The position numbers and the translations under genes are program-made. Shown piece after piece: positions 1,566 to 19,118 of a DNA stretch of 23,023 bases; the first letter of the stretch is position 1, and each line of letters begins with the position of its first letter. Origin of the DNA: a virus. The DNA is taken from IMG/VR virus record IMGVR_UViG_3300030451_005153, positions 1 through 23,023 of that record. One strand, 5' to 3'. Under the pieces are notes generated by a model, which was given only the letters and a program-made list of their open reading frames with translations, was not told where the DNA came from and made no database searches.

Positions 1566-3748
1566 GCGCGCCTTCCCATCACGACTTTGGTGCCCTTCGT
1601 GGTGAACTCGTACTCGTGGCCAACGAGGATGATGTCTGCCGTGGTTTCGAGCTCGAAGCAGAACCACGCCGCGGACATGTGCGCGACACTGTACCGCAGT
1701 GGTACCAGGCGCTCAGACTGGTAGGTCTCGGGCGCACCGAGCACCGTCTTGTCGAGGGTCGGCAGCACAACCGCGTCGGGGGGCTGGGCGAGGTAGGTAC
1801 GCTCAAGCACGGGCACCAGGTCGAAGTCCTTGTAGTGCCGCATCGTGATGGTGCTGTCGCCGGTCGTCATGACCCATATGGTGACGTAGGTGACCTGCTT
1901 CTGTAGCTGAGGGTCACCGGCAGACCACCAGGCCGACCGGTACACGCTCGTTGGTGCGCCCTTGAAGACCATCTCATCGGCTACAATGCTGCTGCCGAGG
2001 GCTCGCTTGCCCGACATGACGAAGAGGCCGCGTTGCGAGTCGGTGCCCCCTGCCTCGGCCCCGGTATGATGGCCGAAGATGATGGTGCCGTCTGCCCGAG
2101 TCGCCAGGGCTCCGACTGGGAATCCTCGGCGTGTGCTCCACGGGCTCAGGCGCTGCGAGTCGATGAGCGCAAGCCGGTCGAGGTGCAGAACGAGGCCGCG
2201 GTTCGGTCGGTCGTTGCCCTGAGCTGGGAAGAAGAGCTGATACTGCCGCTCGGACGCACTGAACACCGCAACAGCCCGGGGCAGGCAGTCGGGCGTCATG
2301 CGCTGGATGAACTCATCCTGCCCGATTGTGAGGTTGACCAGGTCCGCAATGGCGCCGCCCTCAAGGCCGCCTGTCAACCCGTACACACCATCAGTACCAA
2401 GGAAGACGACCCCGAGACCGGGCACCGCTGCGATTGTGTGAGGGCTCAGGCAGGTCACCGAGTTGCTGATTGTGGAGACCTGGAAGCCCTCCGCAAAGCT
2501 GCCGGTGACGACGTCGATGCCCCGCTCGCGGAAGACAAGCAGGTTCGTGTATGAGCCGAAGAGGCCGGTGATGGCACCGCCCTCGCTGCTGAGCTGCACA
2601 AAGTTCGCGGCCCCGAACTGCTCGATGAGTCCTGGCGCGCTGTAGTACAGGCTGAGGCCGTCATCGATACCGCCGTCGAGCCACAGACAGCCCCCGAAGA
2701 GCCCACTGAAGCGCGCGCGAGGGGCGGGCAGGGGGCCGGTCGCAATGTCGGGTTTGGGGCTGTTGAGGTCTGAGGCTCGGACTGCGTCAAAGAAGAGGTC
2801 TTCGGCGTTGTTCCGCACAACATCAAGCCGGTACAGCGTCGTGTCCCCCTCGTTTGCCCCGTCCTCGCTGTAGTTCTTCGTGCGGTAGATGACGCGGGCA
2901 ACGGTGCCCTCGGGACCAATGGGGAGACGGACACCGACGGCATGTCGGAAGCCTTCCGAGTTCGTCCACATGCCCCATGTGACCGTTGCTACTTCGCTGG
3001 CTGGTCCCTCGCTGCCCGTGGAGCTGATGAAGCTCACCGCGTAGCCGAAGAGCGACTGGTTGCCTCCGTCGACTGCCCCGGCTGCCTTGTTGCTGCCGAA
3101 GCCGAGCCCCCAGCGCGCACCGTCTGCAATCCCGCGCGGGTCAGATAGGCACCACAAAGTCAAGGCGCTGCCCATGATGGTCGGGTTGACCGTCGCCCCG
3201 CTCGGGGCGGGCATCGGGTTCACCCGCAGGGGCTCAGGTGAGCTCGGCAGCGACGCGAAGCCGAAAGCCCTGCAACACCTGGCAATGGCTGCCGTCGACT
3301 CGGACGCGTTGCCAAGGGGCCAAGGGTTCACGATGACAGGCCGGTCAACCCCGTTGGTGACGACTGTGCCGTACGGGGTGTCGGTGAACCAGCTGCCGGC
3401 CTCGGTGGGCGTTGGGATGTGTCGGTCGGCCTGCAAGGTGCGCAGGGTAGGAGCCCCTGCAGCGTCGTAGTAGAGCTGCAGCTTGCCGTCAGACTCGAAG
3501 AGCACCGCCTGCCGGGCACCGCCTGCGAGCTGCTGCGCGACATGCAGCGCGTAGATGGGGCCAGTGGTGGCGAAGGGGTCGAAGTCGTTGCGGCCCGTCC
3601 GGTACTGCTCATAGCCAACCCGAGACGACCAGCCGCCCGATACCCGGTCGAGGGTCCAGTTCTGCAGCTTGCCTGCATCCTGCGGGTTCTGCGGCAGCCT
3701 GGTGGCTACGCCGCCGGCAAGGGGCGTCTGATACTGCGACTGGTTCAT
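1562..3748 (-). CDS. tail nozzle-like / tail tubular protein B-like, 728 aa
   Basis: A large beta-rich protein with no membrane segments. It begins with a short arm (MNQSQYQTPLAGGVATRLPQ) followed by Arg-Val-Gly-Tyr-Glu-Gln, then repeated strand-turn units typical of propeller-like phage proteins, such as QAVLFESDGKLQLYYD near residue 85 and GVVFLGTDGVYGL in the second half. Length (about 730 aa) and position directly after an adaptor-like protein match podovirus nozzle proteins such as T7 gp12, which close the tail tube and carry fibres. That assignment rests on context and general character, not on a diagnostic motif. The ATG at 3748 overlaps the adaptor stop by 4 nt (ATGA), so production of the two is probably coupled. 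An alternative is another large beta-propeller virion protein. No protease or glycanase signature was seen. Confidence 0.6.
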   Translation of the reverse strand: MNQSQYQTPLAGGVATRLPQNPQDAGKLQNWTLDRVSGGWSSRVGYEQYRTGRNDFDPFATTGPIYALHVAQQLAGGARQAVLFESDGKLQLYYDAAGAPTLRTLQADRHIPTPTEAGSWFTDTPYGTVVTNGVDRPVIVNPWPLGNASESTAAIARCCRAFGFASLPSSPEPLRVNPMPAPSGATVNPTIMGSALTLWCLSDPRGIADGARWGLGFGSNKAAGAVDGGNQSLFGYAVSFISSTGSEGPASEVATVTWGMWTNSEGFRHAVGVRLPIGPEGTVARVIYRTKNYSEDGANEGDTTLYRLDVVRNNAEDLFFDAVRASDLNSPKPDIATGPLPAPRARFSGLFGGCLWLDGGIDDGLSLYYSAPGLIEQFGAANFVQLSSEGGAITGLFGSYTNLLVFRERGIDVVTGSFAEGFQVSTISNSVTCLSPHTIAAVPGLGVVFLGTDGVYGLTGGLEGGAIADLVNLTIGQDEFIQRMTPDCLPRAVAVFSASERQYQLFFPAQGNDRPNRGLVLHLDRLALIDSQRLSPWSTRRGFPVGALATRADGTIIFGHHTGAEAGGTDSQRGLFVMSGKRALGSSIVADEMVFKGAPTSVYRSAWWSAGDPQLQKQVTYVTIWVMTTGDSTITMRHYKDFDLVPVLERTYLAQPPDAVVLPTLDKTVLGAPETYQSERLVPLRYSVAHMSAAWFCFELETTADIILVGHEYEFTTKGTKVVMGRRA

Positions 3749-5112
3749 GAGAACGTCAGGGGGCCGTAGGGGTTGCGCACGAAGCGGGTGCCCGCGGTTG
3801 GTGTGCCCTTGATGATGCGTCGGGGCACCTCCTTCAAATACCGCTGTTCCATGGCTTTGAAGAGCACATCCTTCTTGCGCATGTAGACCGAGGCAAGGGC
3901 AGGGTTGTCGACCTTGAGGGTGAGCGCCTCAAGGGCAGCATAGGCGACTATCTGAGCGTAGGCGGCAGGCACCAGGGGGACGTCTTGGTCCTCCTGCATG
4001 CGAGGGGGCGCGACCACCATGCGGGTATCGATGTCCTGGTCGCCGCTTGGGTGGGGGTAGAGCTCGACCGACCGGTAGAGGCCGGCCTGGTTGAAGCTGT
4101 ACCGGATGGCCTCGGACTGAAAGGCCTGCCCGCTCAGGTGGGTCAGGCTGAGGTTCGGCTTGAGGGTCACACCGCCCGTCGGGGCTACGGTGTCGACTCC
4201 GACTGCAAGGGCATCGACCGCGTCTGCATGGGTGATGCGCACCGGTGCGAGGATGTTGGCCTCGGCGCAGGTGAAGTAGTACCGCCGGTAGAGCCCGGTC
4301 TGGTTGGGCAGGGTCTCGGGCGTCAGGGTCAGGGTCTGCGTATTGGTGAGCGTGAAGCTCGCGACCTTGCTGAGGGCAGACTCGAAGCCCGACGACACAT
4401 CTCGTCGGTAGGTCGGGTAGTTCTGCGCGTTCGGCCCCATGACGTTGCACATATAGACGTCGATGGTCCGCGCGCCTTGGGAGGCACCTGCTACCGTTGC
4501 AATCCCTCGGGGCACCTGGGGCGCTGGGATGCGGTCGCCCTCGCTGGGAAGGAATGCCTCGATGGTTCCGAGCAGGTCAGGGTCAAGGTTCGCGTCTTCG
4601 CGTTCCCACTTGCTCAGGAACATTGCTTTTGCAGGTATGCCAACCTTGGGGTCACTCACGTTCTGCAGCGTCATGCAGTCGGACGGCAGGCGCACCTCTC
4701 GCCGCTTGACGGTGACGGTGTAGGTGCCGCTTGCGCCGACGAAGGGCCGGCGCAGATACAACCTGGTGGCGAGCTCGACCCAGGCAACGCGGTGCCGGTG
4801 CGAGTTGCCCGCGGAGTCTTTGAAGGTCAGCTCAGCCCGGGCGAGGTTGCTGCCCGGTGTGATGGGGTCTGCCGAGATGGGCAGTCCGGTGCCTGTCACT
4901 GTGGCGCTGCCACTGGTAAAGGTCAGGCTCAAGGTGGTGTCGGTGTACACCTTGACGCGTCGCTCTTTGCTCGCGAAGGCCCAGGGCCGGTCTGTCAGGG
5001 TGCGCGTCTGCGCGTCGTTGAGCAGCGCGACGAGCTGTGTCCGATATGTCGGATTCGTAGGGTCGTAGTCCAGGAGGTTTCCGCAGAAGTCGAGTAGCTC
5101 GCCGAGATTCAA
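3745..5112 (-). CDS. head-tail adaptor / tail tubular A-like protein with large insertion, 455 aa
   Basis: Residues 1-55 (MNLGELLDFCGNLLDYD, LVALLNDAQTRTLTDRPWAF) form the helical start typical of connector proteins of the gp6/gp11 kind. Residues 370-430 (PPRMQEDQDVPLVP, AYAQIVAYAALEALTL, KKDVLFKAMEQRYLKE) form the matching helical end. Such adaptors are commonly about 150-250 aa; here a beta-rich stretch of roughly residues 200-350 separates the two halves, with two similar turns (TGLYRRYYF and AGLYRSVELY). The start is TTG at 5112: GAGGTGA lies just upstream, while the nearby ATG at 5124 reads ATG AGG TGA and stops at once. The gene lies between the capsid terminator and the nozzle-like gene, where a connector is expected. 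The adaptor call is fairly firm; the role of the insert (ring contact or fibre dock) is inference. Confidence 0.65.
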   Translation of the reverse strand: MNLGELLDFCGNLLDYDPTNPTYRTQLVALLNDAQTRTLTDRPWAFASKERRVKVYTDTTLSLTFTSGSATVTGTGLPISADPITPGSNLARAELTFKDSAGNSHRHRVAWVELATRLYLRRPFVGASGTYTVTVKRREVRLPSDCMTLQNVSDPKVGIPAKAMFLSKWEREDANLDPDLLGTIEAFLPSEGDRIPAPQVPRGIATVAGASQGARTIDVYMCNVMGPNAQNYPTYRRDVSSGFESALSKVASFTLTNTQTLTLTPETLPNQTGLYRRYYFTCAEANILAPVRITHADAVDALAVGVDTVAPTGGVTLKPNLSLTHLSGQAFQSEAIRYSFNQAGLYRSVELYPHPSGDQDIDTRMVVAPPRMQEDQDVPLVPAAYAQIVAYAALEALTLKVDNPALASVYMRKKDVLFKAMEQRYLKEVPRRIIKGTPTAGTRFVRNPYGPLTFS

Positions 5113-5132
5113 GGGTCACCTCATGGAAAGAA

Positions 5133-5166
5133 GGCCCCTTCGCCGTGGGAACAGAGCGAAGGGGCC
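5133..5166 (-). terminator. intrinsic terminator after the capsid/decoration genes
   Basis: An 11-bp perfect inverted repeat, GGCCCCTTCGC (5133-5143) and GCGAAGGGGCC (5156-5166), encloses a 12-nt loop. Read on the minus strand the stem is followed by TTCTTTCC, a short U-rich run. It lies between the decoration gene stop (5216) and the connector start (5112). This would lower readthrough from the highly expressed capsid genes into the connector and tail genes. No gene starts between the stem and the connector. Confidence 0.75.
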
Positions 5167-5193
5167 GGGGCAGCGCCTGCCGAGGACACGTGG

Positions 5194-5208
5194 CAGGGCA
5201 CCGCCCTG
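5194..5208 (-). other. small hairpin just downstream of decoration gene stop
   Basis: CAGGGC (5194-5199), a 3-nt loop and GCCCTG (5203-5208) form a compact stem eight bases beyond the decoration gene stop, before the larger terminator. It lacks a U-tract of its own. It may stabilise the 3' end of capsid mRNA or act with the terminator. Confidence 0.4.
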
Positions 5209-5215
5209 GGGGGGA

Positions 5216-5683
5216 CTAGTACTTCTTGATGACGAAGACCGGCGCGAGGTTGGCGGTGTCGGCAGCCAAGGCGATACCGCACACGCTACCCGTCGTGGTG
5301 CCAGGCACCTCGATTTCGGCGCGGCCTGCGGTGCCGATGGGACCGACGAGGGCACTGCCCGCAACGGTCGCACCTGCCACCTGGGCCTCGTCGACGTAGC
5401 CGGCCACGACGATGCGGACCTGCTCACCGGCTGCAGCGACGGCAGCAAGGGCCACACCGAATGCAGCAGCGTTGCCCTTCGTGCCGACCCCGACGCATTC
5501 CTTGACGTAAAGCGCACGGTCTGCGCCGGTCTTGGATGCGTCGAGCTCAACCCAGTCGCCCTTGGCAATGGCGCCGGAGCTGATGAAGGTCTCGACCTGG
5601 CGGCGGTTGCTGGTGTCGGCACCGGCCCCAGTAGGGGAGGTGATGCCGTCGCCGAGGAACTGGATGAGAGTTGAAGTAGCCAT
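5216..5683 (-). CDS. capsid decoration protein, 155 aa
   Basis: A small, Ala/Gly/Val-rich, beta-strand protein without Trp-rich or catalytic motifs. It shows the pattern of head decoration proteins placed next to the capsid gene: an N-terminal arm (MATSTLIQFLGDG), a segment with GAIAKGDWVELD around residues 37-48, then GVALAAVAAAGEQVRIVVAGYVDEAQ around residues 75-100. The latter resembles the DUF2190-type family in which each copy treats added elements as a reset of default value strands. It would bind the outside of the expanded head and stabilise it. ATG at 5683 follows GGAGGCCTGAGCC and lies 3 nt after the capsid stop, so capsid and decoration proteins are expected in similar amounts. A small minor capsid protein is the alternative. 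Confidence 0.7.
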   Translation of the reverse strand: MATSTLIQFLGDGITSPTGAGADTSNRRQVETFISSGAIAKGDWVELDASKTGADRALYVKECVGVGTKGNAAAFGVALAAVAAAGEQVRIVVAGYVDEAQVAGATVAGSALVGPIGTAGRAEIEVPGTTTGSVCGIALAADTANLAPVFVIKKY

Positions 5684-5686
5684 GGC

Positions 5687-6700
5687 TCAGGCCTCCGCGT
5701 CGAGAAGGACACCGTGCGAGGCAAGGTGACCGGTGACAAGCTGCATGCGGCAGAAGACCATAGCGGCCTCGGTCGCAGTGCCAGGAACGGGCATCATGTC
5801 GCCGACTTCGAAGAAGCCGTCGGTGTCCGCATAGAGCTGGAAGTTGCTGGAGCTCAGCACGTAGGCCGAGACAGGCTTCGCAGGAGACTGGGCGGTGAAG
5901 CCGAGGTTGGGCTCGACGTAGATGCGAGCACCGCGCCACATCGCCACCATGTCGCGGTCGAGGCTGTCACGGCCTTCTGCGCTGACGTAGTTGACGAAGC
6001 TCTGCTGCTTGGCCTGGAAGGCTGCGAAGCACTTCGGGCTCATGAGGATGATGTCAGGGAACTCGCCGGAGGGGTTCCGAATCTGACAGTCAATCATGAG
6101 CTGGTCGAGGTGCGACAGGGCGAAGCTGGCGCCCGAGTCGAAGAAGTTGTTGAACCAGTTCTGGGACCGGTAGGTGGTCTTCGCGAGACCGCCAACGGTG
6201 TTCTGCTGGGTGTTCGTGGCAATGCCTTCGAGCCATCCGGTGCCGGCTGCTGTGGTCATGCCGTTGAGGGTCTGCAGCGTTGTCAGGGTGGAGCTGTTGC
6301 CCACGATGACCTGCTTGCTGACTTCCTTCTTCAGCCCGAGCATCACGTTCTTCATCTTGCTTTCCAAGATGTTGACGACTGCAAGGTCACCCTTGTTCGC
6401 GGCCTTCTCGACTGCGCTGAGGATGATGGGCTGGGTGAAGTTCGCATACTCGAACTTGGCAGTCTGGAAGGGGTCAGTCACTGCCATGCTCACCGGCTCA
6501 AAGCCGTTGGTGAGCTCGGTGATGGAGCTGTGGTCACCGAAGATGACAGGCTGCTCGACGCGGAGACCGCCCGAGACCTTGACCAGGTTGCCCGCGCTTT
6601 CGATGGCGCGGAAGAGGGGATGCGAGAGGAAAGAGTTGTCAATCAGCTTGTCGCGCAGGAGCTGCAGCGTAGTGCTGATGACGCTTTGAGGTGCGGCCAA
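5687..6700 (-). CDS. major capsid protein, HK97 fold, 337 aa
   Basis: The length, gene position (scaffold before, decoration after) and the composition fit an HK97-fold major capsid protein. An N-terminal helical arm (residues 1-35, SVISTTLQLLRDKLIDN) precedes a strand region with FEPVSMAVTDPFQTAKFEYANFT near residues 67-90, which fits an E-loop and strand layout. The middle has DQLMIDCQIRNPSGEFPDIILMSPKCF near residues 200-230, a pattern seen in the P-domain/A-domain region of phage capsids. The C-terminus ends with MVFCRMQLVTGHLASHGVLL. The start is TTG at 6700, with GGGAGG 5 nt upstream; no in-frame ATG or GTG occurs nearby upstream. Rare TTG use in the most abundant virion protein is odd. 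No protease gene is present, so maturation cleavage is not implied. Confidence 0.85.
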   Translation of the reverse strand: MAAPQSVISTTLQLLRDKLIDNSFLSHPLFRAIESAGNLVKVSGGLRVEQPVIFGDHSSITELTNGFEPVSMAVTDPFQTAKFEYANFTQPIILSAVEKAANKGDLAVVNILESKMKNVMLGLKKEVSKQVIVGNSSTLTTLQTLNGMTTAAGTGWLEGIATNTQQNTVGGLAKTTYRSQNWFNNFFDSGASFALSHLDQLMIDCQIRNPSGEFPDIILMSPKCFAAFQAKQQSFVNYVSAEGRDSLDRDMVAMWRGARIYVEPNLGFTAQSPAKPVSAYVLSSSNFQLYADTDGFFEVGDMMPVPGTATEAAMVFCRMQLVTGHLASHGVLLDAEA

Positions 6701-6819: not shown

Positions 6820-7638
6820 TCAGCGGCGATGCATAGCCTGGGCCATGGCGAGAATATCGGCTGCACTGGTGTTGCGCAGGTCTCCCCGCTTCGGCCTGCC
6901 TTGGCGTCCGCCCTTGCGGCTGGTGCCGGTGCCCTTGAGCGCTGCCTCTTTGGCTGCCCGCCGCTTTGCTGCCCGGGCTTCGCTGGCCTTGGCGGCCTCG
7001 GCCTTTGCTTTCTTGCCCTTGGCTGCCCAGTAGGCGGTTTCGAGGTCAAGCGATTCGTTGTTCTCAAGGAGGTGCTGCACCTCCGAGCGCAGCCCGGTGT
7101 CTGTCTCGAAGTCAGGGTGCTGCTGCAAGAAGCTCTTGTAGTTGTCCTGCGCTGCCATCTGCTCATACTCGGCCTGCATCGGCTCAAGCACCTGCTGCAG
7201 GCGCCTGGTGACCTCTCGCTCGATGCGCGCGTTGATGCTCGCCTCGTTGAACGGGTCGTATTCGGGCAGCTCGTCAGGGGTGGTGAGGGCTTCCTTGCCC
7301 CGCATCAAGGCTTCCCGCTCGCGCTTGAAGTCTTTGCGCTGCTCGGCAAGCTCCTGGGTCTTCCGGGTGTAGTCGGCCTGCATGCTGCGCATCAGCTTCG
7401 CAATGTCAGGGGGGACCGACTTGACGGCTTGCTCCCAGCTCAGGCCCCGCTTTTTCGGGGGCTCGTCACCCGTCTGCTCTTCCACCTCGACTTCTGCCCC
7501 GTCTTCCTCCATGGCAGCTTGCATCGCTGCGAGCTCGGGGTCAGGGGCTGCGGGTGTCGGCTCAGCTGCTTCCGGCTGGGTAGTGGTTTGCGCCTGCACT
7601 TCTGCAAGCACTTGCTCGGCAACGCTCTCATGTGACAT
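6820..7638 (-). CDS. capsid scaffolding protein, 272 aa
   Basis: Directly upstream of the capsid gene, this protein is almost all predicted helix with strong charge segregation. Residues 1-75 are acidic and Ala/Pro/Glu-rich (AEVQAQTTTQPEAAEPTPAA, then EEDGAEVEVEEQTGDE). The centre (about 85-200) is a charged coiled-coil-like stretch (MQADYTRKTQELAEQRKDF). Residues 215-272 are very basic (KAEAAKASEARAAKRRAAKEA), as in phage scaffold C-termini that bind capsid. The start is ATG at 7638, preceded by GAGGACAC, a leader shared with several other genes of this phage. It would direct procapsid assembly and leave before or during packaging. The separate 119-nt gap to the capsid start contains two weak hairpins. 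Confidence 0.8.
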   Translation of the reverse strand: MSHESVAEQVLAEVQAQTTTQPEAAEPTPAAPDPELAAMQAAMEEDGAEVEVEEQTGDEPPKKRGLSWEQAVKSVPPDIAKLMRSMQADYTRKTQELAEQRKDFKREREALMRGKEALTTPDELPEYDPFNEASINARIEREVTRRLQQVLEPMQAEYEQMAAQDNYKSFLQQHPDFETDTGLRSEVQHLLENNESLDLETAYWAAKGKKAKAEAAKASEARAAKRRAAKEAALKGTGTSRKGGRQGRPKRGDLRNTSAADILAMAQAMHRR

Positions 7639-7644
7639 GTGTCC

Positions 7645-8121
7645 TCACTGGATGAGCTTGATGGGTTGCCCGACCTGGCGATACCAGGAAGGGTTCCAGC
7701 CCGGTGCCTTGATGAAGGCGACAGGCCTGCCCAAGAAGGTGGTGCCAAGCTCAAGCACACTCACCCCTTGGATGCGGTTGACAAGGAAGGTACGCCAGCC
7801 CGGCAGCCCGCCCGTTGCTGTCGCTGACTGCGGGTCAACGTACAGGTGTAGGTAGGTGCGACCGTTCGTGCCCTTCCATATGGCATGAGGGTTCCCCACC
7901 CGCTGCCCCAGGGCGCCAGGTGTGCCCTCGGGCTGCCACTTGTCCTTGTAGAAGAAGGTCACCGGTTGCTTGCGCTCGATGGCCTGGGTCAGGTTGCCGA
8001 GAACGCCGCCCTCGTAGCTGCGGTAATACGCCTGCTTGCGCGTGGCAGGTATGACCGACTCGGGACGCTTGCCAAAGCCGAATATCTGCGCGAGGCGTAG
8101 CCTTATCGACTTAAAGGCCAT
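7645..8121 (-). CDS. WYL-domain-like protein in the head module, 158 aa
   Basis: Residues 45-133 follow the WYL domain layout: NLTQAIERKQPVTFFYKD (start helix and first strand), GQRVGNPHAIWKGTNGRTYL (the r-v-P..l.....yL pattern), then GWRTFLVNRIQGVSVLE and LGTTFLGRP, the usual frldRI..v.l....f..p ending. WYL domains are SH3-like folds, known mainly as ligand- or nucleic-acid-sensing parts of regulators. Here the domain stands alone, without a winged-helix part, between the acidic protein and the scaffold, and its N-terminal arm (residues 1-30) is basic. In this place it could instead be a small head or packaging-associated protein that borrows the fold. The start ATG at 8121 is 2 nt after the previous stop; no strong ribosome binding site is visible, so coupled translation is likely. 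Confidence 0.55.
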   Translation of the reverse strand: MAFKSIRLRLAQIFGFGKRPESVIPATRKQAYYRSYEGGVLGNLTQAIERKQPVTFFYKDKWQPEGTPGALGQRVGNPHAIWKGTNGRTYLHLYVDPQSATATGGLPGWRTFLVNRIQGVSVLELGTTFLGRPVAFIKAPGWNPSWYRQVGQPIKLIQ

Positions 8122-8123
8122 GC

Positions 8124-8633
8124 TTATCGCCGCATACGCTTAGCAAAGTCAAACTCTTCCTCTTCCTCTTCCTCTTCCTCGCCGTCGGGCATGATGACGG
8201 TCTCTTCCTCGACCACCTCTTCCTCAACCGGGGCATCGAGGAACTCAGCGAAGGCCTTGTCGGCTGCGAGCTGGGTGAGGGCTGCGGTGATGGCGGTGAG
8301 CTCGGCGTCGCCCTTGATGTCTTCGAGTTCCACGGGGAACGGCTTTCCGTAGTCGCTTGCTGCTGTTGCCATCATGGCAAGAAATCTTGCAACATCCGCA
8401 TCCATCTCTTCGACGTCGTCGGTGTAGCGCTCGGGCGTCAGGTCGAGCCCCATGACCTTCGCGGCCTTGCTGATGGCCCGGGTGAGGGCGGTGTAGACCT
8501 TCGCCGAGTAGGGCCGGTCTGGGATGGGAACAAGGCCTGCCATCTCCTGCCCGATGAGGTTGTCCTGTTCTTCGGCGATGGCGGCAAGGTCGGCAGGCAT
8601 GCCCTGGGGGGCGCTGGCAATCATGAGAGGCAT
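8124..8633 (-). CDS. acidic protein next to portal, unknown function, 169 aa
   Basis: A helical, acidic protein with no recognised domain. The N-terminal part (MIASAPQGMPADLAAIAEEQ) resembles the proline-rich ends of portal-module proteins. The middle is an amphipathic helix bundle around residues 40-135. The C-terminus has an unbroken run of nine Glu (residues 152-160) and then a short basic tail (FAKRMRR). Such an acid-run-plus-basic-tail layout suggests binding to basic capsid or DNA surfaces, but this is inference. The gene sits between portal and the WYL-like gene and its start overlaps the pattern TGACCCATG with the portal stop. Possible roles are portal accessory, minor head protein, or second scaffold factor; none can be decided from sequence. 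Confidence 0.6.
   Translation of the reverse strand: MPLMIASAPQGMPADLAAIAEEQDNLIGQEMAGLVPIPDRPYSAKVYTALTRAISKAAKVMGLDLTPERYTDDVEEMDADVARFLAMMATAASDYGKPFPVELEDIKGDAELTAITAALTQLAADKAFAEFLDAPVEEEVVEEETVIMPDGEEEEEEEEEFDFAKRMRR
8154..8180. repeat. hexanucleotide microsatellite encoding poly-Glu
   Basis: Four and a half tandem copies of a TCTTCC-type hexamer (27 nt) form the Glu run of the acidic protein. Each six-base unit codes for two Glu (GAG GAA on the minus strand). Repeats of this kind change copy number by slippage, which would change run length in steps of two residues without a frameshift. Confidence 0.8.
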
Positions 8634-8636
8634 GGG

Positions 8637-10334
8637 TCAGGTTCCTTCGGGGGGCATGCCCCCTGCAGCGGGGAAAGGCAGGGGGGCAGGTGGGGCAGGT
8701 GCCTCGACGGGTGCCGGTTCGGTCACCTCGGCAAAGGACTCGGGGAGCTGGTAGGTGCGGACGAGCTCGCCGAGCACTTGGCGAGGGTCGGCCCCGAGCT
8801 GGACCAGGATGGGTACCAGGCGCTCAAGAGCCTGCTGCTTCGTCAGGTCGCTCATCGGGGTGGTGCCCGCGTCGACTGCCCAGTAGCTGAAGTCACCGGT
8901 CAAGTCGTCGGCTGACAGGATGGTGGGGCCGACAGGGTTGGGCAGGCTGAGGGGCTCGGCCTCATCCCCGAGCACAACACTGAGCATGATGTTGTAGGTC
9001 TTCGCAATGCTCGTGATGACCGCGTCTCGGGTGCGCGCCATGCGCCCGACTTCGCTGCTGGTGTAGGCCGCCAGAAGCTGCTGCTCGGTGGCTGTGCTCT
9101 TCGTCACCTCGCCGCGGGTGAACGGTGCAAGCAGGCCGGCTTCGTTGATGTCTGCCTGCACGGTCTGCGCGTACAGGCTGATATCTGCGGGGATGGGCGC
9201 CTGGGGCACCGGCATCATGTTGCCCTCAAGGGGTGCGCCTGGTTGAAGGTCCACCTCGATGAACTCGCCGTCCAGTCCCTGCGCAATCTTCGCCGCACCG
9301 TCCTCGGACAGGAAGCCGGCCCGTACCATCCACTGCCGGGCCATGCGTCGCACACCCTGCGCCTGGTAGGTGCGCATGACGTTCAGCTCTCGGAACTGGT
9401 CAAGGCTCCGACGGATGAGCGAGTAGCCCCGCAGGGGCGTGTCAGGGTCGCGCGAGAAGTAGAGGGGAATGATGGGGACGACCGGCCGCCCGTTGGCTGA
9501 CTTGTAGGGAATGCCCGTTGTCTCGTGCTCTATCTCGGCATCGGGGCGCTCTTCGTCTGCGCCGGCATCGGGGTCGAGGGCACCCACCTGCACCTGCACG
9601 CCCTCGAAGAGCAGCTCTTGCCCGTCTGCGTAGTCGGGCGACCACACGACAAGAGCATCATCGAGCAGGTCATACAGCTCGACTACCCTGACCCACTGCT
9701 CCTCGGGTGGTGTCTGGGTGGGGTCTCCCAGCCCGAGCATCTGGTCCTTGCCTGCGATGCCGGTGCTCTCAATCCACTTGCTGTAGGCCCTCGCCCGCAG
9801 CTCATCGGCGCCCTTGCTGTATCGCTCCGAGGCTTCGAGCAGTGGCATGAGGTAGACGTGCCCCACGTACCGCTGCTGGTCCCAGCTGGTAGCCGTTGCG
9901 TCTACGATGACTTCCCAGGGCGACAGGGCTGCGCAGCTGATGCGCTTGAGCGGGTCTGCCCCCATGACGGGCGCAAGCTTGATGAAGCCTGCCGGGTAGA
10001 TGAGCGCCAGGCGGGTAGCGTCTTCGAGCTGCTCCCTGATGTTGAGCAGGTACTGGTTGGCCGTCGCCTCGGCGACCTCCGCGTTGCCCCGCCCTCGGAT
10101 GTCGGGCAGCACCTCGACCGAGGGGTTCTTCGCGTACAACGAGCCGAGGTAGCTCTCAACGACTGCGTAGGCCTTGGGCACCTCGGTGCGCAGGATGCCG
10201 TCCAAGGTTGGAGCGTTGGTCTCGAAGAAGCGGGTCATGTACAGGTTGCGCAGCTCGCGGAGCTCGTCACGTCGCCCGTCCCAGTAGAGGTCATGTTGCT
10301 GGCAGATGGCAGAACACTGCTCGGGGGTCAGCAT
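8637..10334 (-). CDS. portal protein, 565 aa
   Basis: Portal character comes from position (after large terminase), size and pattern. The N-terminal helix (QQHDLYWDGRRDELRELRNLY) is followed by a region with EVPKAYAVVESYLGSLYAKNPSVEVLPD near residues 50-80. A core of IPLYFSRDPDTPLRGYSLIRRSLDQFREL near residues 285-320 is followed by a long helical stem (LYAQTVQADINEAGLLAPFTRGEVTKSTATEQQ) near residues 405-440. The final 60 residues are Pro/Ala-rich and low-complexity (PAPVEAPAPPAPLPFPAAGG). It would form the dodecameric ring at one capsid vertex, through which the terminase pumps DNA and on which the connector docks. The ATG at 10334 has GAGGCGCCCCT upstream. Tail-end Pro/Ala tract may be flexible and not part of the ring. 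Confidence 0.85.
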   Translation of the reverse strand: MLTPEQCSAICQQHDLYWDGRRDELRELRNLYMTRFFETNAPTLDGILRTEVPKAYAVVESYLGSLYAKNPSVEVLPDIRGRGNAEVAEATANQYLLNIREQLEDATRLALIYPAGFIKLAPVMGADPLKRISCAALSPWEVIVDATATSWDQQRYVGHVYLMPLLEASERYSKGADELRARAYSKWIESTGIAGKDQMLGLGDPTQTPPEEQWVRVVELYDLLDDALVVWSPDYADGQELLFEGVQVQVGALDPDAGADEERPDAEIEHETTGIPYKSANGRPVVPIIPLYFSRDPDTPLRGYSLIRRSLDQFRELNVMRTYQAQGVRRMARQWMVRAGFLSEDGAAKIAQGLDGEFIEVDLQPGAPLEGNMMPVPQAPIPADISLYAQTVQADINEAGLLAPFTRGEVTKSTATEQQLLAAYTSSEVGRMARTRDAVITSIAKTYNIMLSVVLGDEAEPLSLPNPVGPTILSADDLTGDFSYWAVDAGTTPMSDLTKQQALERLVPILVQLGADPRQVLGELVRTYQLPESFAEVTEPAPVEAPAPPAPLPFPAAGGMPPEGT

Positions 10335-10343
10335 AGGGGCGCC

Positions 10344-11891
10344 TCAGAAGGGGAGGGAGTGGGAACGGATACGGCGTGCTTTGCTTCGACTGATGAGGTC
10401 GTCGATGCGCGTTCGGCCCGATTGTAGCGCATGGGTGCGCCAGCTCGACGGGATATCGCGCAGGCAGCGGTATCCTAACGCCATCGCCATAGCGCTGTCA
10501 TCATGCCCGCCCTTGGGCGCCTCGGGTGCGACCTTGCCCGCGGGAATGGTCAGGCTGCGCAGCTCCATCCACGTCACCCGGTCCATGACCTTGACGACCT
10601 GCAAAGACTCGCGCAGGCAGTCGAAGGCCTCAAGCTTGCTCTGCAGGGTGGTGACCCAGGGCTTCTGTTGAGGGCTGCGCCACTGGTAGCGGTAGCCGCA
10701 GTGGGTCAGCTCCAGAAGGAACGCGTGTCCGTGGTTGTTCGACTCCGCAAGCATCAGGGCGTTGTTGTACCTGCTGGCGACCTGGATGCACCGGTGCGCC
10801 CATGCCGCGGGTGTGACCTGGTTGTTCCGCTCGGTGTAGACCGGCTGCATGGTCGAGACCGACACGACGCAGAGGGCCGAGTAGTCACCGCCGACACCAC
10901 CCCCGATGTCGACGCCCATGACGTACCGGTCATGAGGGTGCGGTCCCTCGACTTCCCTGCCGTGCGCCTTGCCGTGTAGCTGGTGCTCAATCACGTGGAT
11001 GTCTTGCAGCACCTCCTCGCCGTAGTACCCGCCCTCCCTGCCGAGGAAGCAGTCATCAAGGCAGGCAGGGTAGTCGCGGCGGAACTTGTAGGGGCCAAGG
11101 GTGCCGAGCTCGCTCCGCCGCCAGGCGAGTTGCCCGTTGCTGAGGTTGTAGGCTTCGGCAAGCTCCGTCTCAGCCTCGGTGCGCTCAAAGTCATCCGGGA
11201 CAGGGTCGCAGTACCTCGGCTCTTCCCACCACCAGTGGGTGATGAGGTGCCAACCGTTCTCAGGCGCTCCTGCAATGAGCTGGCTAAACCGGTCGCCTGG
11301 GTTGTTCGCCGTACTTTCTACCATCAGCAGCCCGTTGCCTACTGCAGGCTTTGCCTGAGCCAGAAGCTCTTCCTGGTCGGGTGCAAAGGCGAACTCGGAC
11401 AGCAGTGCAGCAAGGGGCGTGAACGAACGCAGACCCGTTGCACTCCTTGCGGTGAACGCCTTCAGGGTTGCCCCGGTGTCCGCCAGGCGCAGCTCGCCCT
11501 TGGCCCTGGTGTCGAGCTTGCGCCGCAGGATGCTCGGGGGGTGGTGCATCCACCTCCGATTATCATCGAGCAAGGCCGTGGCAGACTCGGCCCGGAGTGA
11601 CACGAGGGCGAAGAGGGCAGCGGTGGGCGTCGCCGTCCACTGCTGATGCAGCACCATCTTGCAGCCCGTGGTTGCTGCCACCTGCCGCGCCTTGATGACG
11701 ACGATGCGCTTGTGCCCTCGCTTCACCGCGTTGAATATCTTCGTCTGCATCGGCAACGGGGCGAAGGGCACCTCGCGCTTGGTGTCCTTGTCCTGTACGC
11801 GGTGCAGCCTGCAGAACCGTGCAGGGTCGCTCACCAGCCCGCGCACCTGGTCATGCAGCTCGGCCGGTATCGTCGGCGAAACATAGGTCAT
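10344..11891 (-). CDS. terminase large subunit, 515 aa
   Basis: ATPase part: a Walker A-like motif KARQVAATT at residues 67-75 after the strand IVVI, a Walker B-type strand LAALLSEFAF with Glu166 at residues 161-169, and the coupling VEST at residues 191-194. The SE form of Walker B is known from other large terminases. Nuclease part (RNase H-like): Asp328 in VMGVDIG, Glu383 in LAESNNHGH, and Asp464/Asp465 in GGHDDSA. This gives the motor and cutter that cuts concatemers and packages DNA through the portal. The start ATG at 11891 is preceded by GAGAGGACACACTC, a leader also found on replication genes on the other strand. A small-terminase candidate lies immediately upstream. Packaging mode (headful or cohesive end) cannot be decided here. 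Confidence 0.95.
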   Translation of the reverse strand: MTYVSPTIPAELHDQVRGLVSDPARFCRLHRVQDKDTKREVPFAPLPMQTKIFNAVKRGHKRIVVIKARQVAATTGCKMVLHQQWTATPTAALFALVSLRAESATALLDDNRRWMHHPPSILRRKLDTRAKGELRLADTGATLKAFTARSATGLRSFTPLAALLSEFAFAPDQEELLAQAKPAVGNGLLMVESTANNPGDRFSQLIAGAPENGWHLITHWWWEEPRYCDPVPDDFERTEAETELAEAYNLSNGQLAWRRSELGTLGPYKFRRDYPACLDDCFLGREGGYYGEEVLQDIHVIEHQLHGKAHGREVEGPHPHDRYVMGVDIGGGVGGDYSALCVVSVSTMQPVYTERNNQVTPAAWAHRCIQVASRYNNALMLAESNNHGHAFLLELTHCGYRYQWRSPQQKPWVTTLQSKLEAFDCLRESLQVVKVMDRVTWMELRSLTIPAGKVAPEAPKGGHDDSAMAMALGYRCLRDIPSSWRTHALQSGRTRIDDLISRSKARRIRSHSLPF

Positions 11892-13989: not shown

Positions 13990-14483
13990 GGAAAGGACTG
14001 ACACCCGAAGAGCTTGAGCGCACCACCTACTACCGCAAGCGCTTCGAGCTCGGGCTCAACAAGACCGAGCGGGATGCCATCGTAGCCGAGGCCGCGAAAG
14101 AGATGGGCATCACACCCGACAGTGTGCGGCACCGATGGCATCGGCTCGGCATGTGCAAGAAATGGTCTTTCATGGAGCCCGTTGTGCTCAAGGCCGTCGC
14201 CAAGTACCCCTTCGATGCTGACCGCACCTTGGCCGCGAAGTACAACGTGAACTTCAGCAGCTTCGGACACGCGCGCATCCGGCTGGGCATCCCTCCGAGC
14301 ACCATGCGCCGAAGGGCCGCCCTGCGCAAAGAGGTTGCCATCTATGTGCGAGACTACCCGGAGCTGACTGCTGCCGAGGTGCGCGACAGCATCAAGGCCG
14401 ACGGTGACCACCCTTGGCGGTTTAGCGTCCACTGCATCAGCGAGCTCATGAGTGAGGTCTACGATGAACGCGCAGCATCCTGA
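13986..14483 (+). CDS. tandem HTH-like DNA-binding protein, 165 aa
   Basis: Three helix-turn-helix-like segments appear in order. Residues 29-55 read DAIVAEAAKEMGITPDSVRH with a following RWHRLGM. Residues 76-101 read DADRTLAAKYNVNFSSFGHA with a following RIRLGI. Residues 127-150 are ELTAAEVRDSIKADGDHPWR. The first two both end in R-LG-(M/I), suggesting an internal duplication. Highly basic with many Arg, it probably binds DNA or acts as replication initiator/regulator. The GTG at 13986 overlaps the upstream stop and has GGAAGTGA upstream. The C-terminus overlaps the primase-helicase start by 20 nt, so both products are probably made in coupled fashion. No named family is recognised. Confidence 0.6.
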   Translation: MRKGLTPEELERTTYYRKRFELGLNKTERDAIVAEAAKEMGITPDSVRHRWHRLGMCKKWSFMEPVVLKAVAKYPFDADRTLAAKYNVNFSSFGHARIRLGIPPSTMRRRAALRKEVAIYVRDYPELTAAEVRDSIKADGDHPWRFSVHCISELMSEVYDERAAS

Positions 14484-16752
14484 CGCCCGAGTCCGCTCGG
14501 TGTGGCCGACGCCGCCCGAGGGCTGCTGCTACGTCGAGCAGTCCCTCAAGGGTGGGGACTACATCAGCACCGGCTTCTTCCATCGGGGCAGCGTCGACAA
14601 GCAAGGCCGCGGCCGCAGTGTCGAGAACTGCCAGGGTGTGACCTCGCTGTTCTTTGACCTCGACCTGCTCGGCCTGGTGGATGCTGCCCGGCTTGCTCGG
14701 GGCGACATCCTGCCCGAGCGCGCTGCCGACCGAAAGAAGCACATGTACACGATGCCCGAGGAGCATCGGCAGGCCGGCCTTGACATCCTGCTGCAAGACA
14801 TCGGGCACATCCTTGAAACCGTCATGGGGGCACCGCCCACCCTGACCATCTGTAGCGGCTGGGGCTTCCACTTCCACTACGCAGTCGAGGAGGGCATCAG
14901 GAAGAACAAGGAAGCCCTGCAGCAGGTACACGCGGCAGTGGTGGACGTCTGCAACGCGCAGGCCTCCGAGCTGACGCAGGGCATGCACCCGCCCTTGACG
15001 ACCTATCACAAGGCCTTTGACCGGACGCACGACGTAGGCGCCAGGCTCGCCCGCGCACCGGGCAGCAACAACACCAAGGCCAAGCACCGAGTGCAGCCCG
15101 TCGAGGTGGTGTCCGCCTCCGACACCGTCATCACTGCAGACACCCTGGAGCTGCTCCGCAAGGCACACGTCAAGCAGGGTCAGCTCGGGGACAATGCCAA
15201 GGCTCAAGCGGCGCAGAAGCTTATCCCGACGCGTCGACGCCCTCGGCAGATACGCTCGGTTGACTGCGACTTCAGAACCCAGCGCCTAAGCGACGGCCGC
15301 ACGTGGCAGCAGTGCGCTGACGCCCTCGCCCCAGGTGAGCGCCTCAAGGTCATCTGTCCCTACGGCGGCACCTCGGTGGGCTCGGGCTTCTTCCACCGCG
15401 AAGTAGATGGGCGCATGCGCTACTACAGCGCACCGACTGCTACCACCTACTGGAACACCTACAAGCCTGCGAGCTCGCCGGGCCTGGTCGAGCTGATGCG
15501 CAAGCCGGCGAAGAAGGACGGCACCCAGGGCGCGCCCTACAACACGCTCACGAACCTGCGCGAGATGCTCACGCATGACGCAGCCTTCGACCTGTGGTTC
15601 GATGCCTTCCGCGAACAGGAGATGAACGGGCACCAGGTGCTCGACGATGGCATCTGGATTGACGTCATCGCGCACATGGAAGTCGCGTATCAGTGGCACT
15701 GGCGCATCGGCAAAGAGCTGATGTTTTCGGCAGTCGAGAGCGTCTGCCGGGCATCGACTCGCAACCCCGTGCAGGACTACGTCAAGGCGCTCGAATGGGA
15801 CGGCTGCCCGAGGATTGACCGCTGGCTCATGGAGGTCTGCCACACCGAAGACCTGCCCATTTACCGCATCTACGCGAGGAAATGGGCAGTGGGTCTCATG
15901 GCTCGGCTCTTCTCCCCCGGCTGTCAGCTACACACCTGCATGCTGCTCAGCGGCCCTCAGGGCTGGGGGAAGAGCAGCGTGTGGCGAGAGTGGGCGAACT
16001 GGCCTGGGCAGCCCGACTTGTTCTCAGACACTCGCTTCAACATCAAGGACAAGGACAGCTACTTACAGCTCTATTCTGCTCTCATCTATGAAGACGCGGA
16101 AATGGCAGGCTCAACCAACGCCGACCAAGAGACCCGCAAGGCCTTCATCACCTCAGCCATCGACCGGTTCCGCCCTCCCTTCGGCCGCAAGCTGAAGACC
16201 TTCCGCCGGCACACCGTCATCACCATGACCTCAAACGAGCAAGACGTGCTCAGAGACCGAACAGGCAGCCGTAGGTACTGGGTGGTGGCCTGCATGGGCG
16301 ACGGTGCGAACCTCGAATGGCTGCGCAAGTACCGGGACCAGCTCCTCGCCGAAGCCTACAAGGCATACACCCAAGGCGAGCAGTGGTGGCTCAACAAGAG
16401 CGAGGGCCGGCTCAACCGCAAAGCCAACGGCATCTTTCAATACCTCGACTGGTTCAGTCAGTGCGCTGCCTGCGCCTGGGAGCACAACGGGGGAGGCCGC
16501 GCCAACCGCTTCACCGCTGCCGAATTTGCTGACGCCATCGACAGCAACCTCAGCACTCAGCGCTTCGGCCTGTCCCTCAGCTCCGCACTGCACTCGGCAG
16601 GCTTCAAGCGGCACCGCTCGGGGGGCGTCACCTACTACTACAAAGACACCGACCGCCAGGCCGCGGACACCGGCCTGCTTGCCATCAAGGCACTCACTCG
16701 AAGCGACTACCAGCTCACAACACACGCGACACCCACAACCCAACAGACATGA
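14464..16752 (+). CDS. bifunctional primase-helicase (AEP primase plus VirE/SF3-like ATPase), 762 aa
   Basis: Primase part: FFDLDL with Asp65/Asp67, SGWGFHFHYA with His136/His138, and DVGARLARAPGSNN with Asp190, Arg194 and Asn202-203 follow the three archaeo-eukaryotic primase motifs. Helicase part: Walker A GPQGWGKSS at residues 497-505, an acidic Walker B-type strand SALIYEDAEM at 538-547 with Glu543/Asp544, TSN at 589-591 and GSRRYWVV with Arg603/Arg604 near 601-608, as in VirE/D5-like SF3 helicases. Between them, residues 265-330 look like a small Cys/His-rich or beta-rich linker domain. The start chosen is ATG at 14464 with GAGG 6 nt upstream; the longer GTG start at 14452 has none. It would prime and unwind DNA at a phage origin; the polymerase is not in this window. 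The call rests on motifs and order. Confidence 0.85.
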   Translation: MNAQHPDARVRSVWPTPPEGCCYVEQSLKGGDYISTGFFHRGSVDKQGRGRSVENCQGVTSLFFDLDLLGLVDAARLARGDILPERAADRKKHMYTMPEEHRQAGLDILLQDIGHILETVMGAPPTLTICSGWGFHFHYAVEEGIRKNKEALQQVHAAVVDVCNAQASELTQGMHPPLTTYHKAFDRTHDVGARLARAPGSNNTKAKHRVQPVEVVSASDTVITADTLELLRKAHVKQGQLGDNAKAQAAQKLIPTRRRPRQIRSVDCDFRTQRLSDGRTWQQCADALAPGERLKVICPYGGTSVGSGFFHREVDGRMRYYSAPTATTYWNTYKPASSPGLVELMRKPAKKDGTQGAPYNTLTNLREMLTHDAAFDLWFDAFREQEMNGHQVLDDGIWIDVIAHMEVAYQWHWRIGKELMFSAVESVCRASTRNPVQDYVKALEWDGCPRIDRWLMEVCHTEDLPIYRIYARKWAVGLMARLFSPGCQLHTCMLLSGPQGWGKSSVWREWANWPGQPDLFSDTRFNIKDKDSYLQLYSALIYEDAEMAGSTNADQETRKAFITSAIDRFRPPFGRKLKTFRRHTVITMTSNEQDVLRDRTGSRRYWVVACMGDGANLEWLRKYRDQLLAEAYKAYTQGEQWWLNKSEGRLNRKANGIFQYLDWFSQCAACAWEHNGGGRANRFTAAEFADAIDSNLSTQRFGLSLSSALHSAGFKRHRSGGVTYYYKDTDRQAADTGLLAIKALTRSDYQLTTHATPTTQQT

Positions 16753-16762
16753 GAGGACACCC

Positions 16763-17413
16763 ATGCAACTGTACGGAATCACCGAGACTTGCACCGACCT
16801 GTTCACCGCCCTCATCAAGGCTCAGTCCGAGATGGGCAGCGCCGTCAAGGACAGCAAGAACCCCCATTTTCGCAGCCGGTACGCCTCGCTGGCTGCCGTC
16901 ATCGACGCAGTCATCCCATGCCTCAACGCGAACGGTGTAGGCGTGCTGCAGCTGCCCAGCATCGAGGGCAGCGAGGTGCGGCTCACAACCATCCTGATGC
17001 ACAGCAGCGGGCAGCGCCTGTCCTCCACTGTCGGCGCCCCCCTGGGCAAGCGGCAGGACGCGCAGGCCGTCGGCTCGGCCATCACCTACCTGCGCCGCTA
17101 CTCCCTGCAGTCCATCATGGGGCTGCCTGTCGAAGATGATGACGGCAACGCGGCAAGCCGGCGACAGCAGCAGCGGCGCCAGGTGCCCGAGACTGCTGCC
17201 CCCACCCAGGCAGACAAGGACTGGGCGGCCCTCATTGCTGCCGAGCTCGAAGGCGCAGGGCTCTCGGTGCAGCAGTTCAACGTCTGGGCAATGAAGAGCA
17301 ACAGGCAGCCCCTGGGAGGCATGACGCCCCCCAACCTGAAGAACGCCTACTCATGGCTCGCGCATGGCAACGGCCTCGGGGTCATCAAGGCCACCATCAG
17401 CGAGCGTGTCTGA
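16763..17413 (+). CDS. erf: ERF-family single-strand annealing protein, 216 aa
   Basis: The N-terminal core matches ERF: LFTALIKAQSEMG near residues 13-25, KNPHFRSRYASL at 32-43, QAVGSAITYLRRYSLQSIMG at 101-120 and DDDGNAA at 125-131. ERF proteins form rings that anneal complementary single strands in phage recombination. After a basic Gln/Arg linker (residues 132-145) the C-terminal part (about 150-216) is a separate helical tail. The start is ATG at 16763 with GAGAGGACACCC upstream; the long upstream frame lies inside the primase gene. TGATG overlaps it with the resolvase gene that follows. With the RecE-like nuclease and SSB, it forms a recombination unit. Confidence 0.9.
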   Translation: MQLYGITETCTDLFTALIKAQSEMGSAVKDSKNPHFRSRYASLAAVIDAVIPCLNANGVGVLQLPSIEGSEVRLTTILMHSSGQRLSSTVGAPLGKRQDAQAVGSAITYLRRYSLQSIMGLPVEDDDGNAASRRQQQRRQVPETAAPTQADKDWAALIAAELEGAGLSVQQFNVWAMKSNRQPLGGMTPPNLKNAYSWLAHGNGLGVIKATISERV

Positions 17414-17880
17414 TGCTGTACATCGGCATTGACCCTGGCCCGGAGTTCTGCGGCCTGGTGGTGTACTATCTTCAAGAAGAATGCTCGGGGATTGTGATTG
17501 TGTCCCGCAGCAATGCGACGGTGCAAGAGGTGCGCGCTGTCATCGACGAGCTTGCAGCAGACTGCCCGACGGTTGCCATCGAGCACACCCACCCAGGCCC
17601 GCCGTCCTGGTCGGTCATCAAGACAACGGTCGTTCTCGGCCGACTGCTTGAGTACGCCGAGCTTCGCGGGCTGCAGACGGTCCCCGTACACCGCAAGGAC
17701 GTCAAAGCCTACCTCGGCAAGGCAGACAGCCACATACGGCGCAGTCTCATCGAGCAGCACGGCCTTGACCCTGACACCTTCCACTACACCAAAGAGACGG
17801 CGCTCAAAGGCGTCACCGGACACGCATGGCAGGCCCTGGCGGCTGTCATCACACTGCACGACGAGAGGACAACATCATGA
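17413..17880 (+). CDS. RuvC-like Holliday junction resolvase, 155 aa
   Basis: RNase H-like fold: the start LYIGIDPGPEFCGLVVY gives the first acidic residue, Asp7, and TVAIEHTHPGPP gives the second, Glu57. The C-terminal motif, where E. coli RuvC has D-A-A-D-A-L-A, reads HAWQALAAVI at residues 137-146. His137 matches the His seen at this place in some RuvC proteins, but the following Asp is replaced by Gln140. The fold call is strong; catalytic competence is less certain. It would cut branched intermediates before packaging. The start ATG at 17413 overlaps the annealing protein stop (TGATG), and the stop overlaps the next start (ATGA). This order, with the resolvase between annealing protein and exonuclease, is unusual. 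Confidence 0.8.
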   Translation: MLYIGIDPGPEFCGLVVYYLQEECSGIVIVSRSNATVQEVRAVIDELAADCPTVAIEHTHPGPPSWSVIKTTVVLGRLLEYAELRGLQTVPVHRKDVKAYLGKADSHIRRSLIEQHGLDPDTFHYTKETALKGVTGHAWQALAAVITLHDERTTS

Positions 17881-18713
17881 ACATGCCGACCCCCGAGGAT
17901 ACGCTCACCTGGTCAGACGCGGAGTACTTCGCCTTTGACGCGGTGAACGCGACCAGCCTCAAGCAGCTGCTCAAGAGCCCGCGGCAGTATCAGCACCACC
18001 TGCGCAACCCCAAGCCGAAGACCCTCAACATGGTGCTCGGCAGTGCAATCCACTGCATGACCTTCGAGCCCATGCACTTCGATGCCCGCTATGCGGTCTG
18101 GGAAGGGGAAAGCCGACGCACCAAGGCCTACCGAGAGTGGAAGGAGCGGCAGGAGATGGCAGGCCGCACCTGCATCACGGTGAGTGAGCATGAGACGGCC
18201 CGACGCGTTGCTGAGGCCGCAAGCCGTCACCCGCTGATGCTTGACCTGCTTGGGCACCCTGGTACCCAGCTCGAACGGGTGATTGTGTGGCAAGGCTTGT
18301 TCGGGCTGTGCAAGGCGAAGATTGACCTGTTGCACTGCTCCGAAGAGCATGGGCTCATTGTCTGCGACCTGAAGACGACCGGCACCGAGCTCGACGAGCA
18401 CACCCTGCAGCAGACCATGGGGCGGTATGCCGTCCACCTGCAGCTGTGGCACTACTTTGAGGCCGCCTGTGCCTACTACGGGCGCACCTCCGAGGTCACC
18501 TTTGACGCGCGGCTGATGGCCCTGTACGCGCAGACCTCAGCACCCTACGATACGACTGCCTGCGAGCTCGGCCCCGAGACCGTGGCACAAGTTCGCGAGC
18601 TGTACGCCGACCTTGCGCAGGTGTACAGCAATTGCACCGAGCTGGGCCGATGGCCCGGACAACCCGCAGAGCGCCTCATCGAGGTGCCTGCCTACTACAC
18701 CCAACTGAAGTGA
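17877..18713 (+). CDS. RecE-like PD-(D/E)XK exonuclease, 278 aa
   Basis: RecE/lambda-exonuclease-like residues are visible in order: NATSLKQLLKSPRQY near 24-38, GSAIHCMTFEP with His59 at 55-65, Glu133 in ERVIVW, Asp150 in KAKID, Asp164-Leu-Lys166 in CDLKTT, and Gln189/Tyr193 in LQLWHYF. These form the nuclease core that digests one strand of linear duplex DNA and leaves single strands for the annealing protein. Only the nuclease domain is present (278 aa), as in short phage forms of RecE. The start is ATG at 17877 after GAGAGGACAACATC, overlapping the resolvase stop. ATG at 17883 is an alternative. SSB follows 12 nt after its stop. Confidence 0.85.
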   Translation: MNMPTPEDTLTWSDAEYFAFDAVNATSLKQLLKSPRQYQHHLRNPKPKTLNMVLGSAIHCMTFEPMHFDARYAVWEGESRRTKAYREWKERQEMAGRTCITVSEHETARRVAEAASRHPLMLDLLGHPGTQLERVIVWQGLFGLCKAKIDLLHCSEEHGLIVCDLKTTGTELDEHTLQQTMGRYAVHLQLWHYFEAACAYYGRTSEVTFDARLMALYAQTSAPYDTTACELGPETVAQVRELYADLAQVYSNCTELGRWPGQPAERLIEVPAYYTQLK

Positions 18714-18725
18714 GGACACACGACC

Positions 18726-19118
18726 ATGCCCGCATACATCACCATCACTGCCCGACTGGCCCGAGACCCTGAGCTACGCGAGACCCCGCACGGCAAGAGC
18801 CTCTGCAAGCTCACCCTGCCCAACGACTCAGGCTGGGGCGAGAACAAGCTCACCACCTGGTGGAGCTGCACCATCTGGGGCAAGCGGGGCGAGACTGCTG
18901 CGCAGTACCTGAAGAAGGGCAGCTGGGTGACTGTCACCGGTGTGCCCAGCCTGCGCAAGTATGAGAAGAGAGACGGCAGCGAGGGCAGCTCGCTTGAAGT
19001 CGAGGTCAACGACTGGGGCTTCTGCGGCCCGAAGCCTCAGCAGAACCAGGGCAACGGCAACGGGTTCGGTCGAAAGGCCTACAACAACGATGCGCCGTCG
19101 CCCGACATTCCGTTCTGA
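18726..19118 (+). CDS. ssb: single-stranded DNA-binding protein, 130 aa
   Basis: A single OB-fold SSB: YITITARLARDPELRETPHG at the start, SLCKLTLPN and NKLTTWWSCTIWGKRGETAA in the body, then VTVTGVPSLRKYEKRDGS and LEVEVNDWGFCG. A Gln/Asn/Gly-rich linker leads to the acidic tip PSPDIPF, the usual protein-docking tail. Length and layout are those of bacterial and phage SSB. GAGGACACACGACC precedes the ATG at 18726. It would coat single strands made by the RecE-like nuclease and at the fork, and recruit partners through its tip. It is the last gene of the early unit, followed by a stem-loop. Confidence 0.93.
   Translation: MPAYITITARLARDPELRETPHGKSLCKLTLPNDSGWGENKLTTWWSCTIWGKRGETAAQYLKKGSWVTVTGVPSLRKYEKRDGSEGSSLEVEVNDWGFCGPKPQQNQGNGNGFGRKAYNNDAPSPDIPF

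Follow-up and report, generated by a model that had tools for sequence, protein, structure and literature searches.

The window, a stretch of 23,023 nucleotides of viral DNA (IMG/VR record IMGVR_UViG_3300030451_005153), carries on its minus strand a head module with the gene order terminase, portal, acidic protein, WYL-domain protein, scaffold and capsid. The terminase large subunit (10344..11891; PHROG 2, E 5.7e-27; Pfam Terminase_6C) is followed by the portal protein (8637..10334; PHROG 156, E 2.9e-9), an acidic 169-aa protein with a poly-Glu tail and a conserved C-terminal RMR (8124..8633), the stand-alone WYL-domain gene under study (7645..8121), the head scaffolding protein (6820..7638; PHROG 3927, E 1.9e-4) and the major capsid protein (5687..6700; PHROG 9953, E 4.5e-18), with a head-tail adaptor of the SU10 type further along the same strand (3745..5112; Pfam PF24175, E 7.2e-7). 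The acidic protein matched no known family in Pfam; the WYL gene is always flanked by the acidic gene immediately upstream and by the scaffold gene immediately downstream. The pI of 4.05 and net charge of -26 of the acidic protein agree with the acidic portal-side neighbour of the preliminary description, and it might pair by charge with the basic WYL protein. Past the capsid gene, a 155-aa gene (5216-5683, minus strand) has a weak likeness to Phage_cement_2 (E 0.065) and possibly encodes a decoration protein, and a 207-aa ORF in another frame (5116-5739, pI 12) looks like a shadow ORF. On the strand opposite to the head genes lies a recombination-replication module (14452-19118, plus strand) comprising a primase/helicase, an Erf-like annealing protein, a Holliday junction resolvase, an exonuclease VIII and an SSB.

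The WYL gene has an ATG start, encodes 158 aa, begins 2 bases past the acidic gene and ends 6 bases ahead of the scaffold gene. Three parts can be distinguished on the minus strand: a basic N-terminal arm (residues 1-39, 8005..8121) with a short helix followed by an FGFG..P..VIP motif, modelled at low confidence; the WYL core (residues 40-124, 7750..8004), a helix followed by beta1-beta5 in Sm/SH3-like order, delimited by the Pfam match to residues 40-121 and the AlphaFold (AF2) model and including R74, Y90, R110 and R116 (full-length numbering); and a C-terminal extension (residues 125-158, 7648..7749; F..APGWNP.WY..VG.P), which the AF2 model and the family alignment present as one helix and one strand that are family-specific and distinct from WCX. 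Computed charges bear out the basic arm that had been claimed (net +6 in residues 1-38) and extend to the whole protein (pI 10.6, net +14) and to the family, which is basic throughout (+5 to +19 in 54/54 members). Pairwise comparison of the window gene with seven relatives gave dN/dS values of 0.07-0.24, approximate because dS exceeded 1 in every pair, and the gene is under purifying selection. The minus-strand reading is therefore the coding one, and an antisense artefact at 7645-8121 was rejected.

WYL domains, modules that bind nucleic acid, are familiar chiefly from bacterial gene regulators and from defence systems. Pfam PF13280 matched residues 40-121 of the window protein over profile positions 2-69 of 70 (E 4.6e-4), with a score of 20.6 bits that is 1.2 bits short of the curated cut-off of 21.8, and the PADLOC model for CRISPR-associated WYL matched residues 34-135 (numbered without Met) with an E-value of 2.4e-7. 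The Pfam cut-off was passed by orthologues at the same position, with 22.0 bits in L048, which is nearly identical to the window protein, 26.3 bits in L200 and 35.2 bits (E 1.3e-8), the clearest WYL score, in L302. Among divergent relatives, 21/22 presented a WYL match at E<=1 (best E 3.9e-5); members L182 (the same gene as L112), L116 and L242 had a weak or no PF13280 score by Pfam alone and were tied to the WYL family via the family alignment. Profile-profile comparison of the family with nine cellular WYL domains, drawn from E. coli K-12 and plasmids, scored 32.5; the highest score among 200 column shuffles was 18.1, and the reversed alignment scored 8.4. Chance resemblance was rejected on the basis of these controls and the orthologues above the cut-off, and the window gene is confirmed to contain a true WYL domain, in agreement with the layout originally read from the translation. 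Searches with the WYL protein against PHROGs and NCBIfam, and against PDB sequences with the single sequence or a profile, returned no informative match.

An AlphaFold model built from a 54-sequence alignment reached a mean pLDDT of 79, compared with 44 for a shallower alignment. Blocks of ten residues in the core scored 81-96, dropping to 58 in the beta1-beta2 loop and to 71 in the beta3-beta4 loop, and the N-terminal 30 residues are uncertain (51-63). The modelled core consists of helix 38-49 and strands 53-58, 70-83, 88-94, 107-112 and 116-123 (numbered without Met), that is, the helix and five-stranded Sm/SH3-like barrel of a WYL domain. All nine PDB matches at E<=0.001 in Foldseek were the WYL proteins CapW, BrxR and PafBC (probability 1.00), followed by further CapW entries and then DriD. 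TM-scores by query were modest for the nine best matches (0.42-0.46, with poor full-length rmsd), and because the query carries extensions while the matched proteins have several domains, the resemblance lies in fold and sequence jointly rather than in a tight superposition. The preliminary description had named a known head-completion fold as the outcome that would overturn the WYL assignment; WYL regulators came first, and this candidate was rejected, as the 50 best fold matches listed included no head-completion protein. In the viral library (BFVD), the third match was a "WYL domain containing protein" of an uncultured Caudovirales phage (TMt 0.70), so a WYL protein encoded by a phage has precedent. 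Geobacillus phage TP-84, another BFVD fold match, has no WYL domain by Pfam or by the WYL-family profile.

The head-module protein resembles WYL proteins of PF13280 (CapW, BrxR, PafBC and DriD) in domain order, fold, best PDB matches and the motifs R-x3-P, Y-L and R-x-[FY]-x3-R-I, but differs from them in a longer beta3-beta4 insert, a hydrophobic residue at the equivalent of R211, a location in a phage head operon and the lack of HTH and WCX. Neither the Pfam search nor the AF2 model revealed a second Pfam domain, an HTH or a WCX in the window protein, so that the reading of a stand-alone domain holds and the N-terminal HTH and usually C-terminal WCX of WYL transcription regulators are missing; a helix-turn-helix in the N-terminal arm was rejected, as the model has a short helix and a loop there. 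This absence of an output domain bears on the foremost alternative, in which the protein would respond to a nucleic acid or nucleotide by adjusting the translation or the timing of its portal, scaffold and capsid neighbours, or would bind late mRNA as the Sm-like Hfq does. Most known WYL proteins do regulate, with HTH-bearing architecture classes accounting for >90% of bacterial WYL sequences (PMC6789036), the WYL fold resembles that of the RNA chaperone Hfq, and the scaffold gene immediately follows the WYL gene in the tightly spaced operon. However, a regulator would not need to stay in the head operon, outside which the gene was never found, and regulation in either form, taken together, is considered unlikely. 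Two other WYL proteins are also among the closest known systems. RspWYL1, the accessory WYL1 of type VI-D CRISPR, acts as an accessory and is not obviously a transcription factor (PMC6547453), a likeness of description rather than sequence, but it stimulates Cas13d and is not part of a phage head. Bacillus phage G gp296 (L301, 5438-6049) is a phage WYL-like protein of 203 aa with no other recognised domain (PF13280, E 0.0012, 19.3 bits), but is encoded close to a UvrD-like helicase and at a distance from terminase and head genes, and was not matched by the profile of the head-module WYL family.

Residues R73, R109, R115, H91, W108 and P77 are invariant in 54/54 non-redundant members of the WYL family and Y89 is a tyrosine in 53/54 (all numbered without Met). 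By motif spacing rather than structural superposition, R73, Y89, R109 and R115 correspond to R181, Y196, R208 and R214 of PafB, whereas the equivalent of PafB R211 is L, I or A in 54/54 members and that of R204 is L, M or K in all 54. In PafB, ssDNA binding was lost in every variant tested there (R181A, R181A/R204A/R208A, R211A/R214A and Y196A; PMC11804915). As judged from the alignment, the WYL ligand site is partly kept, with three of the five PafB arginines and the tyrosine, and PafBC-like ssDNA binding may be lost or changed because the equivalents of R211 and R204 are replaced. The loss of one ssDNA-binding arginine in all members, together with the conserved C-terminal extension and a conserved, family-specific insert (DPxSxxxxGxxPGWR in the alignment), would suit a purely structural reuse of the Sm/SH3-like barrel as a ligand-free head or connector brick. 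We regard this as rather unlikely given the invariance or near-invariance of R73, Y89, R109 and R115 and the fold matches listed above, among which head-completion proteins were missing.

Exactly one WYL gene was found between the portal/acidic protein and the scaffold in 245/245 locus records without exception, a set in which records overlap, as the same contigs were fetched repeatedly, and which is a non-random sample of the lineage, as the capsid and WYL seed alignments were picked stepwise toward distant members. These records hold 122 distinct WYL gene sequences, and 41 are non-redundant with all six genes, counted by protein sequence and not by virus. Records fetched by the capsid protein, a search independent of WYL, show the same placement. 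The gene is thus fixed in the head module, as is expected for head assembly, which rejects a mobile moron gene, and the position between acidic portal-side protein and scaffold that the preliminary description gave for one sequence recurs throughout the metagenomic relatives. The genes are packed, with usually -1 to +10 bases from the stop of the acidic gene to the start of the WYL gene, and in L200 the WYL gene overlaps its neighbours on both sides. Mean identity is 60% for WYL and 57% for the scaffold, and WYL distances correlate with those of the head neighbours (r 0.50-0.82), values that fit vertical inheritance. The WYL gene belongs to the core of the head module of a large, uncultured phage lineage. 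Perfect retention at one locus, the mean identity and the low dN/dS are also unlike an arms-race gene and argue against a role in counter-defence or host takeover, in which the protein would be packaged with the DNA and mimic or disturb host WYL regulators or soak up a defence signal. CBASS, BREX and CRISPR systems are known from published work to be regulated by WYL proteins, the PADLOC model matched is the CRISPR-associated one and gp7-like proteins bring toxins into the heads of other phages (PMC6316719), yet we consider this reading improbable. Of the three alternatives, regulation is the likeliest, followed by structural reuse and then by counter-defence. Both functional suggestions of the preliminary description, an SH3-like fold put to use in the virion and a sensor coupled to head production, are thereby retained as candidates.

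Within the collection searched, no isolate phage presented a match to the WYL gene, E-values up to 1 giving only chance-level matches, and tblastn against isolate phages and plasmids yielded no WYL-gene relative. Roseobacter phage CRP-7, linked to the lineage by TerL only (26% identical), and Myxococcus phage Mx9, linked by capsid only (27% over a third), carry different small genes at this place and lack a WYL gene there, and the WYL function is therefore not a general one. Mx9 was the only isolate matched by the capsid protein (5687-6700) and none was matched by the portal (8637-10334), which places the lineage far from cultured phages.

With a probability of about 0.5, we favour a role as a minor protein of head assembly whose nucleic-acid binding would take place close to the portal, by analogy with SPP1 gp7. 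The gene of gp7 likewise follows the portal and precedes the scaffold, and gp7, a minor capsid protein, attaches to the portal and is directed to the procapsid interior (PMC6316719, where the title of a cited work calls it DNA-binding); the analogy is one of place and role alone, with no sequence relation claimed. A head-assembly role is suggested by the fixed gene place, nucleic-acid binding by the kept residues and positive charge, and action near portal or scaffold by the gene neighbours. The stand-alone WYL (Sm/SH3-like) domain, a constant element of the lineage's head-morphogenesis module, would be co-made with scaffold and portal and recruited to the procapsid by contacting the acidic neighbour, scaffold or portal. 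In the procapsid, the basic arm and WYL groove may bind nucleic acid, either the end of the packaged DNA or ssDNA where terminase cuts, and this binding could help packaging start, DNA retention or ejection. We infer that a nucleic-acid-binding minor head protein is the most economical model. A doubtful variant has the domain act as a nucleic-acid sensor in head assembly, which on binding ssDNA or a DNA end at the portal would license scaffold release or packaging; if true, a module of defence and DNA-damage regulators would work as a virion checkpoint.

The WYL domain itself is well known, and the variant found here lacks HTH and WCX and is fixed in a morphogenesis operon; searches of the open-access literature returned no description of a WYL protein in a phage head module or virion, and the preliminary description likewise knew of none. 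WYL domains have been held to be almost confined to bacteria, with 81 sequences from Eukaryota, Archaea and Viruses in a search yielding 15,079, and to occur mostly in combination with DNA-binding domains (PMC6789036). With a WYL gene fixed in a head operon, the domain would be seen to work beyond gene regulation and defence. Its invariant residues provide concrete, testable positions in a putative new factor for head assembly or packaging, and a phage "WYL" match need not mean defence or regulation. The WYL relatives are metagenomic IMG/VR contigs, with the addition of one head module of the lineage, including the WYL gene, in a MAG of candidate division WOR-3 (L302; CP070680.1, 489818-508348). 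This module, which may be a provirus or a binning stray, is a possible clue to the host.
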